A stretch of 64,000 nt of DNA, taken from NCBI GenBank assembly GCA_002839335.1, contig PGXU01000010.1:22700-86699 (forward strand). Reading direction: 5' to 3'. Positions 47,803 through 55,433 of the stretch are shown here, one piece after another. The position numbers and the translations under genes are program-made. The notes beneath the pieces are model-generated. The model did no database searches. It was not told where the DNA came from and saw only the letters and a list, made by a program, of their open reading frames with translations. The DNA comes from Spirochaetae bacterium HGW-Spirochaetae-4 (GTDB lineage: Bacteria > Spirochaetota > Spirochaetia > Sphaerochaetales > Sphaerochaetaceae). Position 1 is the stretch's first letter, and every line of letters begins with the position of its first letter.

Positions 47803-48501
47803 TTAGCGGGACTGGTAATCGTGTGAGGATATCCACGTCTCCGTATGCGCATGGACACACGCGACCGCTTGCTGTGAATCCCTTTGCATGATCGCGTTGT
47901 GCAGGTTCCTATGGGCTTCATAGACTCCCGAGTGGATGGGATTGATCGTCGGGGCGAACAGTTCGATCACAAAATTATAGATGTTCTCGACAATGGGATT
48001 ATGGGAATATTTGCCAAGCAGTCGGTGGTACCGGATATCATATTTGCTTGCCTTCTCGGGAGAAACCGAATCTTTCCCGAGCTCCTCAAGAAAATCGGCC
48101 ATGGCCATGTCCAATTGATGCAAGTCGTCCTTGTCGGCATTTTCGATTACCAACCGGACAATGCCCTCCTCCAACAGTTCACGAACCTGGGTCAGCGACC
48201 GGTAGTCCCGCTCCTGGACGAGTATCTGGAAAAGATGGGCATCGAACAGCCGTTTGTTCGATGCGGTGGCGATAAAGGTTCCGGCTCCCCGCCTGATCTC
48301 CAGGACTCCATAGGCGCACAGCACCTTCACCGCCTCACGGACCGAGCCCCGCCCGACTTGCAGGCTTTCGGCGAGGACGGTCTCACTGGGGATCATGTCG
48401 CCTGGCTGCAATTTCCGTTCAATCAGCAGTTCCTTTATCTTCTCGACAACGATTTCCACTGCAGAAGGTCGCCGTCCGTTTACTGCAAACATGTCTTCCA
48501 T
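47803..48501 (-). CDS. GntR family (FadR/FCD subfamily) transcriptional regulator
   Basis: GDMIPSETVLAESLQVGRGSVREAVKVLCAYGVLEIRRGAGTFIA plus helical FCD domain. Confidence 0.9.
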   Translation of the reverse strand: MEDMFAVNGRRPSAVEIVVEKIKELLIERKLQPGDMIPSETVLAESLQVGRGSVREAVKVLCAYGVLEIRRGAGTFIATASNKRLFDAHLFQILVQERDYRSLTQVRELLEEGIVRLVIENADKDDLHQLDMAMADFLEELGKDSVSPEKASKYDIRYHRLLGKYSHNPIVENIYNFVIELFAPTINPIHSGVYEAHRNLHNAIMQRDSQQAVACVHAHTETWISSHDYQSR

Positions 48502-48531
48502 CGACCAGACACTCCAATGTTTAGGGATTCG

Positions 48532-48549
48532 GATACCGTATGATACCGT
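48532..48549. promoter_or_regulatory. Helical-phase direct repeat upstream of GntR gene
   Basis: GATACCGT-AT-GATACCGT (10-bp period). Confidence 0.35.
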
Positions 48550-48584
48550 GGCAACCTATTTGTTGCAATGTTTAAGGCACCTCT

Positions 48585-48932
48585 TCAATCCTTATAATCA
48601 TCCCGGGCGGGTGTAAAGCATTCCAACAATTCGGTATCCTCCAACACCACCGACCCGTGGGGATCGTTGGAGGCGAAGTAGTAGGCGTCTCCTGCCGTGA
48701 GTTCCAGGATTTCTCCGTTTCCCTTGATGAACTTTATCCTGCCCTTCATGACAATCCCATTTTGTGACTGGACATGTGTATGCATCTCCAATATGGCGTC
48801 CTTTTCCAGGTAGAACCAGCACATCATGGTGTCCGCATCGTAGGTGAGCGTCACCCGGTCGATTCCCGGAGCCCGCTGTACGCGTGGATCCGTGGAGAGA
48901 CTGCCCCTGTGTTTTCGTAATGGTGCCATCAT
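48585..48932 (-). CDS. Cupin-domain protein
   Basis: LEMHTHVQSQNGIVMKGRIKFIKGNGEILELTAGDAYYFASNDPHGSVVLEDTELLECFTP. Confidence 0.8.
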   Translation of the reverse strand: MMAPLRKHRGSLSTDPRVQRAPGIDRVTLTYDADTMMCWFYLEKDAILEMHTHVQSQNGIVMKGRIKFIKGNGEILELTAGDAYYFASNDPHGSVVLEDTELLECFTPARDDYKD

Positions 48933-49981
48933 CGGTTTCTCCTTCTCTGTGCGATATAGTCGAGCAGCAGTGTCCACCCCTTCATGAAGGACGTACGGAA
49001 CAGTTCCACCCCGCCAAAATCGAAATACTCGTCGGGTTGCATCCCATCGGCGGCATATGCCCGTCGGAAATCGGGAAGCTTCGCCAGCAATTCATCGACT
49101 ATCCGGGAATCGGGCATCGCATCGATCCGCGCAACCGCAGGAAGATCCTTTTCAATCAACGTATCGGCCGAACCTTCCCAGTTGATGGTGATATGGAGGT
49201 CTCCACCGACCAATTCGGTGAAATCCTCGAGTTTCCGGGCACCTCCCCCGATCATGATTCCCGGATACCGCCGCTCCTTCATCAACGCATATTGTTTCTT
49301 GGCAACCGCCAGACCTGCCCACTTCACCGCATCATCGGAAATCACCAAGCCTTGCGTCTTGACCACACGCTTGAAGTGGTCGTCGAGGATTCCGGTGATA
49401 TGGGTCACATAGAAGGGAGGAGTCTTTCCACTTGTGGTGGACGCCCGGTTGTATGCCTCGCAAATCGAGACAGCTTGGGAAATACCCATCACTTCCGTGG
49501 CCATGGTAGGAATATCCAAGGTTACCAGACTGGCGATCGCTTCGATACCGGGTTCGGTGACAGGAATCTTCACGGTAATATTCGGACCGATCTTCCTATT
49601 CTCCAGACCTTCATCGATGATACTCTTGGCGTCTTCCTCGGCGAACGGATCCCCTTGGATGGTGACGAACCCTGTCCGCCCTTCCGAGGCTTCGTACATG
49701 GGCATGAACAGATCGCTCAAGCGCGAGACCATGATCCGTTGCACCAAGGAGGCCAACTGGGAATCGTCCGCCACATGCGGTACCAGCATGTCCACCGTGC
49801 GTTGCACGTCGGCATGATCGTCAGGAGAAGATAAGAGTTTCGATACATAGCTCGGGTTTGTGGTACACCCCACCGCACCGGCTGCGATAGCGGCTTTCGC
49901 CTGTTCGATCGTTGGGTTGTTGATCCAGAACCGTGTCGGCGTCTGTTCGTTTATCCGATGGAAATATCCTGGTTTGTTCAT
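48929..49981 (-). CDS. Transaldolase-family protein (non-canonical, ~350 aa)
   Basis: FWINNPTIEQAKAAIAAGAVGCTTNPSYV, ITVKIPVTEPGIEAI (candidate Schiff-base Lys); start MNKPGYFHRINEQTP, not the longer ORF start. Confidence 0.8.
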   Translation of the reverse strand: MNKPGYFHRINEQTPTRFWINNPTIEQAKAAIAAGAVGCTTNPSYVSKLLSSPDDHADVQRTVDMLVPHVADDSQLASLVQRIMVSRLSDLFMPMYEASEGRTGFVTIQGDPFAEEDAKSIIDEGLENRKIGPNITVKIPVTEPGIEAIASLVTLDIPTMATEVMGISQAVSICEAYNRASTTSGKTPPFYVTHITGILDDHFKRVVKTQGLVISDDAVKWAGLAVAKKQYALMKERRYPGIMIGGGARKLEDFTELVGGDLHITINWEGSADTLIEKDLPAVARIDAMPDSRIVDELLAKLPDFRRAYAADGMQPDEYFDFGGVELFRTSFMKGWTLLLDYIAQRRRNR

Positions 49982-49995
49982 TGAATCGCTCCTGT

Positions 49996-51279
49996 TCAGT
50001 TGTTGAATAATAGATTCGGCAACCACAAGGAAACTTGTGGGATATAGGTGAGGATCACCAGTGAAATCGCCAAGGTGACCAGATAGGGCGTGACAGCCCG
50101 AAAGATCTTGCCGACCGGCAGTTTGACGATCGGACTGAGCATATAGACGCTCATGCCAACAGGTGGTGTAATCATACCGATCATGAGGTTGAATACCATG
50201 ACGACCCCGAAATGGACCGGGTCGACTCCCGCGGCCATCAACGGCGGCAACAGGATGGGAGTGAGGACCATGAGCGCCGCGGTCGTTTCCAGGAACATAC
50301 CCGCAATCAACAGTACGATATTCGCCAGCAAGAGCAGGACCGCCGGATTCTCGGTAATATTGAGCAACAGGGCGGAAACTTGCTGTGGCAATTGCTCCAC
50401 GGTCAGGGTCCACGCGAAGATCGCCGCGGAGGCTACAATAAACAGTACGCTTGCGGTGGAACGCAAGGTTTCCCGGCAGACCTTCAGAAATTCCTTCCAG
50501 GAAAGTTCCTTGTAGATGGCGCTGAGGATCAGCGCATAGGTCACAGTGATCGCAGCAACTTCCGTCGGTGAGAAATAGCCGCTGAGCATACCGCCCATGA
50601 GCATGACCGGCATCAACATCGAAGGCAATCCCCGCCTGATGGTATGCAGCACTTCCTTGCGGGAAAACTTTCCTTCGACACCACGGGGATAATTCCGCTT
50701 ATGCGCGAAATAGCTCACCTGCATCATCAACAACGCGACTATGACCAGTGCGGGAAAGACGCCAGCCATAAGCAGTCGCATCGATGACGTCTCGGCGGCC
50801 GCACCATAGATGATCAGCGGAATGCTGGGAGGAAAGATCGGCCCGACCACAGCGGAAGCAGCGGTTATCGCGGCCGAGGCATCCTTCGGGTAGTTCTGTT
50901 CGGTCATGGCATCGATTTCGATATTGCCGAGACCGCCCACATCTGCCAATGCCGCGCCGGAAATGCCGGCGAAAATGAGACTGGCCACGATATTCACCTG
51001 GGCAAGACCACCCTTGAGGCGTCCCACCAGCAGTTTGGCGAATTCGAACAGCCGTGAGGTGATACCGGAGTTGTTCATCAATCCGGCGGCCAGGATGAAC
51101 AAGGGAACGGCAAGCAGCGGAAAGGAATTCAACGATGCGACCATCCGCTGGATCATCACACTGATCGGAATACCCTGGACAAGCAGGTAGATCGCAGCGG
51201 GAACTCCCATGCTGACGGCAATGGGAAGCCCGGTTGCTATCAACACGAGAAACAGGAGGATAATCATTCCACCACTCAT
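49996..51279 (-). CDS. dctM: TRAP transporter large permease (DctM)
   Basis: MSGGMIILLFLVLIATGLPIAVSMG, FILAAGLMNNSGITSRLFEFA, GPIFPPSIPLIIYG, ITPPVGMSVYMLSPI. Confidence 0.92.
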   Translation of the reverse strand: MSGGMIILLFLVLIATGLPIAVSMGVPAAIYLLVQGIPISVMIQRMVASLNSFPLLAVPLFILAAGLMNNSGITSRLFEFAKLLVGRLKGGLAQVNIVASLIFAGISGAALADVGGLGNIEIDAMTEQNYPKDASAAITAASAVVGPIFPPSIPLIIYGAAAETSSMRLLMAGVFPALVIVALLMMQVSYFAHKRNYPRGVEGKFSRKEVLHTIRRGLPSMLMPVMLMGGMLSGYFSPTEVAAITVTYALILSAIYKELSWKEFLKVCRETLRSTASVLFIVASAAIFAWTLTVEQLPQQVSALLLNITENPAVLLLLANIVLLIAGMFLETTAALMVLTPILLPPLMAAGVDPVHFGVVMVFNLMIGMITPPVGMSVYMLSPIVKLPVGKIFRAVTPYLVTLAISLVILTYIPQVSLWLPNLLFNN

Positions 51280-51755
51280 GACAATTCTCCTTTCCGACCT
51301 TTGAAGACATCGAATGTGTGTACGGCTGCTCCAATCGACATGAAGACCAACCCGATCACAATAGGGATGTAGAAGAGGATGTTGGGCATGCGTATGGCCG
51401 GAGTACGGACACTCCAGTTGCGTGTCATGACCTGATTGACCGCAATGAGCAGGAATACGGCGAGTCCTATGCAAAGCAGTTCTATGCATATCTCCAATAC
51501 CGGCCGGATGCGTTTTGGGACCCGCGCGGAGAGGATGTCGACAATGATATGCTGCTTGTCGATCGTCAAGACCGGAACCATGAGGAACACCAGGGAGACC
51601 AGGCAAAACCGGGCCAGCTCCTCGAGCACGACCGATCCGCTGGAGAAGAAGTTCCTCATGATGATTTGAACCAGCACGCAAGCGAACAACGCCAGAAGGA
51701 ATACTATTGAACTGCTTTCAAGGACTTTGCTGGTCTTCTGCATGAATTTGTGCAT
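51276..51755 (-). CDS. dctQ: TRAP transporter small permease (DctQ)
   Basis: Four-TM protein with IIMRNFFSSGSVVLEELARFCLVSLVFLMVPVLT; ATGA overlap with dctM. Confidence 0.88.
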   Translation of the reverse strand: MHKFMQKTSKVLESSSIVFLLALFACVLVQIIMRNFFSSGSVVLEELARFCLVSLVFLMVPVLTIDKQHIIVDILSARVPKRIRPVLEICIELLCIGLAVFLLIAVNQVMTRNWSVRTPAIRMPNILFYIPIVIGLVFMSIGAAVHTFDVFKGRKGELS

Positions 51756-51833
51756 ATGATCCGTCTCCCTTTCGTATAGACAGCACGTGACCGGAGTAGC
51801 TCCGGTCACGTATGGTAGCATGAATCGGTGCGA

Positions 51834-52853
51834 TTATTTGATAGCTCTGATCTGTTCGTAGTAGGCGCCCCATTTGGCTCCGAACCGCTGTTCCACGACC
51901 TTGTTGACCGAAGCCCTGAATTCATCGACTTTCAAGCCCTGTTCGGGTCCGATGATCGTCATGCCCTTGTCAGCGAGAATCTGGAGGTCGGAGGCTTCGC
52001 TGTCCTGGACATAATTGGATGCCCAGTCGCGTGTTTCCTTGGCCACTTTGGTGAAGACCTGCTTGTGCTCATCCGAAAGTTTCTGCCATACGGATTCGTT
52101 GATGACAACAGGCTCCGACCCCATGATGTGGTGGGTAAGCATCAGGAACTTCTGCACATCGTACAGCTTGTTCGAAACCAGCACGCTGACCGGATTCTCC
52201 TGCCCGTTCGCGACACCGGTCGAGAGGGCTACGGGAACTTCGGCCCAGTCCACGGGGACTGCGACTGCTCCCATTCCTTCCACTGCCGCCATATAGATGG
52301 CCGAAGGGATTGCCCTGATCTTCTTTCCGGAAAGATCCTTGGGAGCATAGACTGCGGAGTTGGCGGTCAAATCACGTGTGCCGAAATAGAAGGAGTAGAG
52401 TACGCGGACATTGCGTGAATCGATCAACTTCTGGTTCAGTTCCTTCAAGACCGGGGAGGTCTCGGGATCTGTTGCCTTCAAGAGGTGGTCGACATCCCGA
52501 TAGAGGTAGGGGGTATCGAACAGTCCAAGATCCTCGAGCAGGGGTTGCAGACCGCCATAGGTGTTATGGTGGAGAGCGACACTCCCTTGGGATACCATTT
52601 CAGCCATCTCCGTTATCGTACCGAGCTGGGAGCCCGGGTAGACTTCGATCTTGATCGCACCACCGGTCTCTTCGGCGATCCGATCGGCGAAGTACTGGGC
52701 TTGCAATCCATTCGGACTGTTGGCGACGTTCATATGCGCATAACGCATCACCAGCGGTTTTTCGGGGGTGGGACCCGATTCTGTCTGGCCAGCGGCGAAT
52801 AGCATCGAACCGACCATGAGCAGAGCCAATACAAGTGTCATTCCTTTTTTCAT
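51834..52853 (-). CDS. dctP: TRAP transporter substrate-binding protein (DctP)
   Basis: Signal peptide, NSPNGLQAQYFADRIAEETGGAIKIEVYPGSQLGTITEMAEMVSQG, GKKIRAIPSAIYM. Confidence 0.93.
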   Translation of the reverse strand: MKKGMTLVLALLMVGSMLFAAGQTESGPTPEKPLVMRYAHMNVANSPNGLQAQYFADRIAEETGGAIKIEVYPGSQLGTITEMAEMVSQGSVALHHNTYGGLQPLLEDLGLFDTPYLYRDVDHLLKATDPETSPVLKELNQKLIDSRNVRVLYSFYFGTRDLTANSAVYAPKDLSGKKIRAIPSAIYMAAVEGMGAVAVPVDWAEVPVALSTGVANGQENPVSVLVSNKLYDVQKFLMLTHHIMGSEPVVINESVWQKLSDEHKQVFTKVAKETRDWASNYVQDSEASDLQILADKGMTIIGPEQGLKVDEFRASVNKVVEQRFGAKWGAYYEQIRAIK

Positions 52854-52898
52854 GACGAACTCCTTTTTTGTGTTATCTATACCGACCGATTGTCGGAT

Positions 52899-53855
52899 TC
52901 ACACCTTGTTCTTTTTCCGGACCGCCGATTCGGCGCCCTTCACGATATCTTCCACAGACATGCCATAGGCATCCAACAATTCATCGGGGAACCCCGACTC
53001 GCCATAACAATCCTGCAGTCCCAATCGTACCAGGGAAGCAGGGACCTCCTCCGCGATCAACTCGGCGATGGCGCTGCCGAGCCCTCCGATTACCGTATGG
53101 TCCTCGATAGTGACCGCACATCCGGTCCGTACGAGCACTGCCTTGATACCTTCGGTGTCCAATGGTTTGACCGTGGCCACTTCCACCACGGTGACGCCGA
53201 CTCCCTTTGCCTTCAGGACCTTGGCAGCCTGCATCACCCTATTGAGCACGAACCCGTGGGCAAACAAGGCCACATCGTCTCCCTGATCGGCCATGATGCG
53301 GATCTTGCCGAGAGGAAATGGAGTTCCGGAAGGAAACACCTTCTCTTCCCTACCGCTGCCGATACGGATATAGACGGGACCGTCGATATCGACGGATGCC
53401 AGCATGGCTTGGCGCACCTGGTCTCCATCGGCCGGACACAACACGGTAAAACCGGGTATGGTTCGCAAGATGCCGATGTCTTCGATGAACTGGTGGCTCA
53501 CACCTTCCCTGTTTCCTCCGAACAACCCGCCGTTGGCTCCGACGAACCGGACCTTGAGTTTGGGATATCCTACGAAAGTCCGCATCTGTTCGCAAGCCCG
53601 CATGGTCAAGAATCCAGCGTAGGTGCAGATATAGGGAACCAGTCCTGTGGATGCGAGCCCGGCGCATACTCCGACACCGTTTTGCTCGGCGATTCCCAAT
53701 TCCACGACGCGCTCTGGCCAACGCTCCAAGAACGGTTCTCCCTTCACCACCTTCAACGAGTCGGTGGAGACAAACACGATATCGTCGCGCTTCTCGGCCA
53801 ATTCGATCAAGGCATTCGTGAACCCTACGCGGGTGCTGTCATAGACTACTTGCAT
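52899..53855 (-). CDS. Transketolase, C-terminal subunit (split)
   Basis: FVSTDSLKVVKGEPFLERWPERVVELGIAEQNGVGVCAGLASTGLVPYICTYAGFLTMRACEQMRTFVGYP. Confidence 0.9.
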   Translation of the reverse strand: MQVVYDSTRVGFTNALIELAEKRDDIVFVSTDSLKVVKGEPFLERWPERVVELGIAEQNGVGVCAGLASTGLVPYICTYAGFLTMRACEQMRTFVGYPKLKVRFVGANGGLFGGNREGVSHQFIEDIGILRTIPGFTVLCPADGDQVRQAMLASVDIDGPVYIRIGSGREEKVFPSGTPFPLGKIRIMADQGDDVALFAHGFVLNRVMQAAKVLKAKGVGVTVVEVATVKPLDTEGIKAVLVRTGCAVTIEDHTVIGGLGSAIAELIAEEVPASLVRLGLQDCYGESGFPDELLDAYGMSVEDIVKGAESAVRKKNKV

Positions 53856-54673
53856 ACCGTGCCTCCCAACTCGACCATCGCCTGTTCATATTCCGCATCG
53901 GTATAGACCCGCTTGTGCCAGGTGTTGTCACCCACCATGAACGACAACCCCTGACCCTTCACTGTCTTGGCGACAATCACCGAGGGTCGGTCCACAACGA
54001 GCTTCGCCTGTTCGACCGCCTCCAGTATCTGTGCGATATCATGGCCGTCGATGGTTTGCGTATGCCAACCGAAATCGGCCCATTTCTCCGCTATCGGGTA
54101 TGGTCCGGAGATTTCTCCCACGGTTCCTCCGCTTTGGTAGTTGTTGTTGTCGACGAATACCGTGAGGTTCGCCATCTTGTGGTGGCCCGCGGCCATCGCG
54201 GCTTCCCAGATCAAGCCTTCACCCAACTCGCCGTCGCCGGTAATCACATATACACGGTAATCCTGCTTCCGGATCCTTGCAGCCATGGCCATGCCCAACC
54301 CGATGGAAACGCCGTTGCCGAGCGAACCGGTGGTCGAGTCGAGTCCGGGGGTCTTCGGTTCATACGGGTGTCCCTGCAGGTTGGAATGCAAGTATCGCAA
54401 TGTGGTCAGCTCGTCCGGCGAAAAATAGCCCCGTCGCGCCAGCGCCGCATACAAAGCCGGACAGGCATGGCCTTTTGAAAGGATGAAGCGGTCCCGGTCT
54501 TCCCATTTCGGATTCTCGGGATCGATACGCAAGATATGGAAATAGAGGGCCGCCAGTATCTCGGCAACCGAGAAGCTGGGAGACGGATGCCCGTCCTTTG
54601 TCCGGTAGACCATTTCAACGACATCCTCGCGGATGCGTCTCGCACAATCCTGCAGATACGCGATATCAGCCAT
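53846..54673 (-). CDS. Transketolase, N-terminal TPP-binding subunit (split)
   Basis: DGHPSPSFSVAEILAALYFHILR, FILSKGHACPALYAALARRG, VITGDGELGEGLIWEAAMAAGHHKMANLTVFVDNNNYQ. Confidence 0.92.
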   Translation of the reverse strand: MADIAYLQDCARRIREDVVEMVYRTKDGHPSPSFSVAEILAALYFHILRIDPENPKWEDRDRFILSKGHACPALYAALARRGYFSPDELTTLRYLHSNLQGHPYEPKTPGLDSTTGSLGNGVSIGLGMAMAARIRKQDYRVYVITGDGELGEGLIWEAAMAAGHHKMANLTVFVDNNNYQSGGTVGEISGPYPIAEKWADFGWHTQTIDGHDIAQILEAVEQAKLVVDRPSVIVAKTVKGQGLSFMVGDNTWHKRVYTDAEYEQAMVELGGTVCK

Positions 54674-55338
54674 TACTTGTCCTCCAACATGTCCCGGACC
54701 ATTTCGACGCCAAGCCGAGGGCTGGAAAATACCGTTTTGCCGGTGAGCTTGCGCAAGGGATCTTCCATTCTGGCCATGGATCCTTGGGCAAGGAGAATGA
54801 CGTCACAGGTATCCGCGACTCGCATGGCGGTTTCCGCGATCAACCTGTCGTGGGTCTCGGCATCTCCCGCTGTAATGGCGGGAAAAGCTCCTTCGGCCAG
54901 CGCGGACACGGTGGTGATCTTCCTGCCCATCTCGGCCGCACAGGCTTCGAGCAATCGGATAGTCGGGTCCAATGTCGTCGGGAGGGTTGCGAGGACCGCG
55001 ATGGAACCGGCCATGGCAATCGCTTTGCGGGCCATGGCTTCATCGATCCGTACGATAGGGATGGGCATGAACTCGCGGGCACCATATACGGCATCGCCGA
55101 TGGACGAGCAGGTGTTGAGTATCAGCTCGGCTCCCGAGGCGCATGCGATCTCGTAATAGCCATACAGCCGTCGTTTCACCGCCTTGGTCATTCCACCATG
55201 CGCAATGATCTCTGCGATCATGCTGTCATCGAGAATATTCATCACTTCATAATCGGGAAGCACTTCACGCATCAAATCTGTTAGTGGTTTGACCAGGGCT
55301 GCTCCCGTGTAGATCGCTGCAATCTTATGGTTCGACAT
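54673..55338 (-). CDS. Asp/Glu/hydantoin racemase superfamily protein
   Basis: ELILNTCSSIGDAVYGAREFMPIPIVRIDEAMARKAI; second site LLAQGSMARM. Confidence 0.78.
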   Translation of the reverse strand: MSNHKIAAIYTGAALVKPLTDLMREVLPDYEVMNILDDSMIAEIIAHGGMTKAVKRRLYGYYEIACASGAELILNTCSSIGDAVYGAREFMPIPIVRIDEAMARKAIAMAGSIAVLATLPTTLDPTIRLLEACAAEMGRKITTVSALAEGAFPAITAGDAETHDRLIAETAMRVADTCDVILLAQGSMARMEDPLRKLTGKTVFSSPRLGVEMVRDMLEDK

Positions 55339-55351
55339 TGTTACCTCGCTC

Positions 55352-55380
55352 ATTCATACGACATCGGACGTCTTATGAAT
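55352..55380. promoter_or_regulatory. 29-bp near-palindrome upstream of the racemase/transketolase/TRAP gene run
   Basis: ATTCATACGACATC-G-GACGTCTTATGAAT; 12 of 14 positions pair. Confidence 0.6.
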
Positions 55381-55433
55381 ATACTGTGAGGCAGGTTCTG
55401 GAATCTGTCAAGAAAAACTTTCGGGAAATGTGG

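Follow-up and report, generated by a model that had tools for sequence, protein, structure and literature searches.

A split transketolase and an atypical transaldolase-fold protein in a conserved spirochaetal gene cassette, possibly for an unphosphorylated sugar acid

The closest characterised systems to the locus described here, a nine-gene cassette on the minus strand (47803-55353) of a 64,000-nucleotide stretch of DNA (the window) from Spirochaetae bacterium HGW-Spirochaetae-4, are the bifurcated sulfo-transketolase (sulfo-TK) and sulfo-transaldolase (sulfo-TAL) clusters (PMC11659671, PMC13219744). Like these SqwGH, SftT and SftX clusters, the cassette brings together a split transketolase, a transaldolase relative and a cupin in a putatively inducible cluster with no kinase, but it lacks SQase, sulfoquinovose (SQ) isomerase, SqwI, SqwF and an exporter, and it differs further in its tripartite ATP-independent periplasmic (TRAP) rather than ATP-binding cassette (ABC) transporter, its altered phosphate sites and its extra racemase-fold protein. 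AptAB, the apulose-4-phosphate transketolase, is likewise a split transketolase engaged in unusual-sugar catabolism; in Apt loci, however, a kinase first supplies the phosphorylated branched ketose, and the cassette has no kinase. The Otn, Ltn and Den (DUF1537) pathways resemble the cassette in the acid-sugar substrates predicted for it, in their FCD GntR or TRAP partners and in the racemase relatives of DUF1537 loci, but the DUF1537 kinase, OtnC and the dehydrogenase are all missing from it. A published description of the nine-gene set was not found in the open-access literature searched, which leaves standing the suggestion of a first-pass annotation, made from the letters of the window, that the pathway is undescribed or poorly described.

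In order of transcription the nine genes are as follows.

54673..55353, minus strand: Asp/Glu-racemase-fold protein, single-cysteine type (PF01177, 67 bits; alignment)
53846..54673, minus strand: tktN, N-terminal half of the split transketolase (PF00456, 188 bits)
52899..53855, minus strand: tktC, C-terminal half of the split transketolase, 'REG' subfamily (PF02779 and PF02780; alignment)
51834..52853, minus strand: dctP, TRAP solute-binding protein, sugar-acid/sialate type (PF03480; TIGR00787 above cut-off; PDB matches)
51276..51755, minus strand: dctQ, TRAP small membrane subunit (PF04290)
49996..51279, minus strand: dctM, TRAP large membrane subunit (PF06808; TIGR00786 above cut-off)
48929..49981, minus strand: transaldolase-fold protein, 'NN clade' (PF00923, 75 bits; alignment; AlphaFold2; Foldseek)
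48585..48932, minus strand: KdgF-like cupin (PF07883; match to KdgF 5fpx/5fpz; alignment)
47803..48501, minus strand: FCD-type GntR regulator (gntR), final gene of the cassette (PF00392 and PF07729)

All nine proteins exceed the cut-off of their Pfam matches. Sequence and an open reading frame (ORF) check return the same positions as the first-pass annotation, and its picture of eight minus-strand genes with overlapping ends followed by an FCD GntR regulator is borne out by coordinates and Pfam, with gntR co-directional too. Overlaps join the racemase-fold gene to tktN (TAATG), tktN to tktC (10 nt), dctQ to dctM (4 nt) and the transaldolase-fold gene to the cupin gene (4 nt), while gaps of 14, 45, 78 and 83 nt separate dctM from the transaldolase-fold gene, tktC from dctP, dctP from dctQ and the cupin gene from gntR, respectively. 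The true start of the racemase-fold gene is likely to be at 55338, behind a GAGGT. Neither the ORF list nor Pfam/TIGR profiles reveal a kinase, a dehydrogenase or a classical sugar isomerase within the operon, as had also been noted at first pass.

We propose, at slightly less than even confidence, that the nine genes form a self-sufficient, inducible unit handling a monocarboxylic sugar acid that is unphosphorylated and already bears a keto or aldehyde group. An acid-type transporter, two altered phosphate sites, the lack of a kinase or dehydrogenase, a genome without Dak1 and acid-sugar neighbours of related genes all support a substrate of this kind, an oxo- or aldehydic sugar acid with no phosphate group.

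The transaldolase-fold protein has the TAL/FSA (transaldolase/fructose-6-phosphate aldolase) fold of transaldolase (EC 2.2.1.2), as judged from its PF00923 score and from an AlphaFold2 model (pLDDT 88.7) whose best PDB matches in Foldseek are transaldolases (TM 0.73–0.78, 17–20% identity). When 36 members of the family are aligned together with four transaldolases of the ordinary kind, the window copy and 18 further loci stand apart as the NN clade. The roles of the corresponding residues are well established in TalB. Its Schiff-base lysine (K132) is kept as K138 in a V-K-I-P motif that is invariant across all aligned loci. At the position of Asp17, where the canonical motif is W-[LY]-D, the 18 NN-clade loci and the window copy have Asn (W-[IV]-N-N; W-I-N-N in the window), and the phosphate-binding Arg (TalB R181) is replaced throughout the clade by Ile (I198 in the window) in T-G-I-L/F. 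The clade also has a Glu after a conserved Thr (ATE; T162-E163 in the window) and a T-[IM]-N-W motif, and retains an FSA-like Gln and an equivalent of TalB Arg228 (Q109 and R249); in the other clade (WNDS/WHDS) neither the Asp nor the Arg is lost. Of the four PF00923 members of the window genome (G000, 99.9% complete), three belong to the NN clade and the fourth is a distant protein of 568 aa, with no ordinary transaldolase among them.

The split transketolase possesses the thiamine pyrophosphate (TPP) domains and fold of transketolases (PF00456, PF02779, PF02780), and its nearest solved chain by PDB sequence comparison is the split transketolase of C. hydrogenoformans. When TktC is aligned with this enzyme and human transketolase (yeast numbering), three of the four phosphate ligands are altered in the window copy (S386 to V, H469 to N and R528 to S) and R359 is kept; the equivalents of Ser386, His469 and Arg528 are replaced in other cassette TktC copies too. 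The loop at D477 carries an inserted G[NE]REG (GNREG in the window copy), and this 'REG' signature is common to the TktC proteins of the cassette, of loci L048 and L049 and of a second operon in genome G397. The window genome encodes one full-length and five split transketolases, and because the canonical full-length enzyme is encoded elsewhere in the genome the cassette enzyme is not the housekeeping one; a housekeeping pentose-phosphate role was ruled out by this separate transketolase together with the altered active sites.

With Asp17, Arg181 and three TktC phosphate ligands lost, a family name is no proof of canonical phosphosugar transfer, and to call the cassette proteins 'transaldolase' and 'transketolase' probably misleads. 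The altered phosphate sites of both enzymes instead point to unphosphorylated acid sugars. The first-pass suggestion of a sugar-acid pathway using ketol and dihydroxyacetone transfer is therefore upheld in part: an anionic sugar acid fits, but canonical transfer finds no support in these active sites. The same substitutions (Asp17 to Asn and loss of Arg181 in one protein, loss of the S386, H469 and R528 equivalents in the other), together with the lack of a uronate isomerase of any known family in the cassette, weigh against a carboxylate analogue of sulfoglycolysis, in which true transaldolase and transketolase would convert a ketohexuronate, with glyceraldehyde 3-phosphate as acceptor, to fructose 6-phosphate and tartronate semialdehyde, and to xylulose 5-phosphate. 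Sulfo-TAL and sulfo-TK do perform such transfers without a kinase, alongside a cupin (SftX/SqvB) likened to KdgF (PMC9594981, PMC11968277), and a sister operon described below joins a tartronate-semialdehyde reductase to a split transketolase and a transaldolase. Dihydroxyacetone kinase Dak1 was not found in the window genome, so free dihydroxyacetone would be a poor product, which again suits transfer. On balance we regard this carboxylate route as rather unlikely, though the strongest of the alternatives.

The distribution of the cassette was surveyed across Spirochaetota, and on plasmids outside the phylum, by profile searches that covered 393 genomes at the level of the phylum and 395 at that of the class, after which gene neighbourhoods were fetched. 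A short exact-peptide scan of the genome collection returned three loci only; profile searches and neighbourhoods revealed all nine genes together in 17 genomes from six families (f1, f17, f18, f20, f62, f64), namely the window genome, G568, G531, G529, G357, G407, G543, G595, G535, G533, G591, G594, G431, G426, G329, G397 and G464, and in an eighteenth (G515) the cassette is interrupted by the contig end. Some relatives seemed to carry an in-frame stop; in the four that were checked it was the stop codon that ends the gene. The flanks are identical in some genomes, where the cassette adjoins parE/parC, and differ in others, and since the nine genes recur across 17 genomes and six families with flanks differing in several, the arrangement goes beyond chance. 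Co-conservation, the lack of which had been named beforehand as grounds for abandoning the proposed sugar-acid pathway, is thus present, and speaks for a single catabolic unit whose genes are kept together. G537 has lost the TRAP genes while the racemase-fold gene, tktN, tktC and the transaldolase-fold, cupin and gntR genes are retained, which marks the five enzyme genes as the functional core.

Pairwise identities over 12 loci are correlated at 0.93–0.99 among the racemase-fold gene, tktN, tktC, dctP and dctM, at 0.87–0.96 among the transaldolase-fold, cupin and gntR genes, and at 0.76–0.89 between these two blocks; of the five gene pairs put to a permutation (Mantel) test, each gave p 0.0002. 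Compared with L004, whose cassette is a near-twin of that in the window, G431 shows 66–74% identity in the transaldolase-fold protein and cupin but only 46–56% in its other proteins, indicating that its gene groups come from different lineages; an extra gntR lies between the two groups. The two groups are transcribed away from each other in G329 and G426. The correlation blocks, the mixing in G431 and these divergent arrangements all argue for two cooperating modules, racemase-transketolase-TRAP and transaldolase-cupin-GntR, which appear from these comparisons to have recombined once.

A split transketolase, a transaldolase and a cupin occur together in the bifurcated sulfo-TK/sulfo-TAL clusters of Faecalicatena and Caproiciproducens (PMC11659671, PMC13219744), and some Sphaerochaetaceae encode sulfo-TK (PMC13219744), so a sulfo-sugar pathway had to be considered. 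It is highly improbable, since SQase, SftI/SqvD, SqwI, SqwF, SqwE and sulfolactaldehyde (SLA) reductase all fall outside the conserved nine genes, there is no gene for disposal of a C2 or C3 sulfonate, and transport is by TRAP rather than ABC proteins. Sulfoglycolysis was rejected because its marker genes are missing from every cassette (a statement about cassette genes rather than whole genomes), and the context of the split transketolase is not SqwGH-like either, as the cassettes have no SqvD/SftI, SqwI, SqwF or SQase.

The transporter is a complete TRAP system, with DctP, DctQ and DctM identified (TIGR00787, TIGR00786) and the Arg/Arg/Asn anion site of solute-binding proteins present in the alignment. 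DctP (motifs GTR..T.N, KKIR, GQENP and PVDW) carries the residues with which proteins of this family bind the acid group, namely two Arg, an Asn and an aromatic residue (Trp); relatives in the family have been reported bound to pantoate or erythronate, ligands that were possibly co-purified (PMC11668362). The cupin matches Y. enterocolitica KdgF (5fpx/5fpz; E=4e-11, 46 bits), and like KdgF it has the cupin fold, the metal ligands H46, H48, Q53 and H87, kept in all cassette cupins, and the active-site F/R pair; unlike KdgF it has Glu at the position of Asp102 and no unsaturated-uronate genes nearby. The retained ligands and F/R pair would suit a genuine KdgF opening a 4,5-unsaturated uronate derived from pectin or alginate, but KdgF-like cupins have broader roles and no polysaccharide lyase, KduI, KduD, 2-keto-3-deoxygluconate (KDG) kinase or 2-keto-3-deoxy-6-phosphogluconate (KDPG) aldolase is recognised in the cassettes. 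The classical form of this route was set aside for want of recognisable lyase, KduI, KduD and KDG genes, and we consider the explanation as a whole very unlikely.

The racemase-fold protein keeps the first catalytic-position Cys (NTCSS in the window; [N/E/Q]TCSS across cassettes) but the second position reads AQGSM in every cassette copy, so it is not a two-cysteine racemase. Relatives at 41–46% identity adjoin sugar ABC transporters and oxidoreductases, and those of Deinococcus and Rhodococcus adjoin four-carbon-acid-sugar kinases and class II aldolases. L062 and L064 have a racemase relative beside an oxidoreductase, a four-carbon-acid-sugar kinase and a class II aldolase, and no OtnI-type isomerase is listed in the stretches around these racemase relatives. 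As a separate observation, the combination of racemase-fold protein, DUF1537 kinase and class II aldolase at L062:6090-10810 and L064:4854-7859, in whose listed surroundings neither OtnI nor OtnC appears, is possibly a non-orthologous tetronate pathway.

NN-clade genes outside the cassette also have acid-sugar neighbours, several of which are named from our reading of the sequences. They include a DenD-like short-chain dehydrogenase/reductase (SDR; L006), a 2-hydroxyacid dehydrogenase (L038), a DUF1537 kinase (L050), an acetoin-dehydrogenase-like E1 with split transketolase (L048, L049) and lactonase-like, Ldh-like and HpcH-like genes (L128-L130); DUF1537 kinases occur beside some NN-clade or racemase relatives but in none of the cassettes. 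The DenD-like SDR, the DUF1537 kinase and the 2-hydroxyacid dehydrogenase, the last accompanied by a TIM-barrel isomerase-like protein, are also consistent with a Schiff-base β-keto-acid decarboxylase, which would form the enamine of transaldolase but release CO2 rather than an aldehyde, and so turn 3-oxo sugar acids into ketoses for the split transketolase. With Asn where transaldolase has the Asp that takes the proton from the C4-OH, a carboxylate would be a suitable leaving group, and the missing phosphate Arg fits as well. The idea is drawn purely from residues and neighbours, we know of no decarboxylase of the transaldolase fold, and a dihydroxyacetone product would face a genome without Dak1; we judge it unlikely.

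NN-clade members at L037, L039 and L041 lie beside DRL-domain (PF21135) oxidoreductases and TRAP genes, a neighbourhood that suggests branched sugar-acid catabolism. The sister operon (L047, L056, L075) runs SDR, tktN, tktC, tartronate-semialdehyde reductase (402 bits in L047 against a cut-off of 341), transaldolase (WHDS) and SDR, with tripartite tricarboxylate (TTT) or TRAP transport, and is probably another kinase-free sugar-acid route; its pairing of a split transketolase and a transaldolase with this reductase also counts in favour of our main proposal. In G397 the neighbours of the second 'REG' tktC include TRAP genes and a dehydrogenase of the PGDH_C/KARI_N type, a family that includes D-apionate oxidoisomerase. 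At L122:1677-8054 a TRAP system, such a dehydrogenase and a 'REG' split transketolase adjoin the cassette; this could be a kinase-free apionate route, in which hydroxypyruvate would remain once 3-oxo-isoapionate had given up its ketol unit. On a Shinella plasmid (L066:4762-10848) a transaldolase-family gene sits within an E1a-E1b-E2-E3 acetoin-dehydrogenase-like operon; L048 and L049 show a comparable pairing, there with an NN-clade protein.

For the unphosphorylated sugar acid that we favour, DctPQM would import the substrate, gripped by two Arg and one Asn, and the KdgF-like cupin may catalyse ring opening or tautomerisation. The one-cysteine racemase-fold protein, standing in for Hyi/OtnI, could shift the oxo group via an enediol, interconverting 2-oxo/3-hydroxy and 3-oxo/2-hydroxy acids (for example tartronate semialdehyde to hydroxypyruvate). 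The transaldolase-fold protein would form a Schiff base on Lys138 and cleave a C-C bond near the carboxylate, with Asn21/Asn22 binding the acid group where TalB Asp17 would serve as base; the NN-clade chemistry may be retro-aldol cleavage, transfer or decarboxylation. The split transketolase would then move a two-carbon ketol unit from a short keto acid to an aldose phosphate, and by this transfer carbon would join the pentose-phosphate pool with no kinase or dehydrogenase dedicated to the purpose.

Several points weigh against this proposal. The NN clade retains the Schiff-base Lys and the TalB R228 equivalent, conservation extends to TktN and to the TktC residue matching R359, and a nearby Arg/Lys (GSG[RK]) could rebuild a phosphate site. 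The sister operon with tartronate-semialdehyde reductase has the other transaldolase clade (WHDS, Asp kept), and the racemase-family neighbours are those of proteins at 41–46% identity. Individual transketolase and TalB residues are assigned their roles from general knowledge of these enzymes, the order of the steps is a guess, and the substrate and exact chemistry are putative.

Three candidate control elements accompany the cassette.

55406..55411, minus strand: TTGACA, -35-like element (sequence; the promoter scan itself made no call there)
55352..55380, no strand assigned: palindrome ATTCATAAGACGTC-C-GATGTCGTATGAAT, candidate GntR operator (14-nt arms, 86% complementary)
51785-51811, minus strand: perfect 12-bp inverted repeat in the dctP-dctQ gap (repeat search)

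TTGACA, which also precedes the racemase gene in L005, L106 and L107, is probably a -35 element. The palindrome adjoins it directly upstream of the first gene, and its consensus has a single match in the window, against 0.02 expected by chance; in L005 and L107 comparable palindromes directly precede the racemase gene, and more diverged ones lie at the same place in L115, L106, L113 and L123. GntR would repress from this site until the acid or an intermediate binds. The 12-bp repeat probably forms an mRNA hairpin, a likely role of which would be to raise DctP expression.

More broadly, and with greater reserve, we suggest that the NN clade and the 'REG' split transketolases may be two uncharacterised enzyme classes, co-evolved for unphosphorylated acid sugars, with a Schiff-base C-C cleavage (possibly decarboxylation) in the first that is not known for the fold and a kinase- and dehydrogenase-free route in anaerobic spirochaetes. 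If the sugar-acid reading is right, automatic annotation miscalls these proteins as pentose-phosphate enzymes (the NN-clade members as transaldolase), and metabolic models gain a transaldolase that may not exist in the window genome. With five enzyme genes, one binding protein and one candidate operator, the cassette is a small testable set, and would open the way to discovering how a sugar acid is broken down and what else the transaldolase fold is used for.

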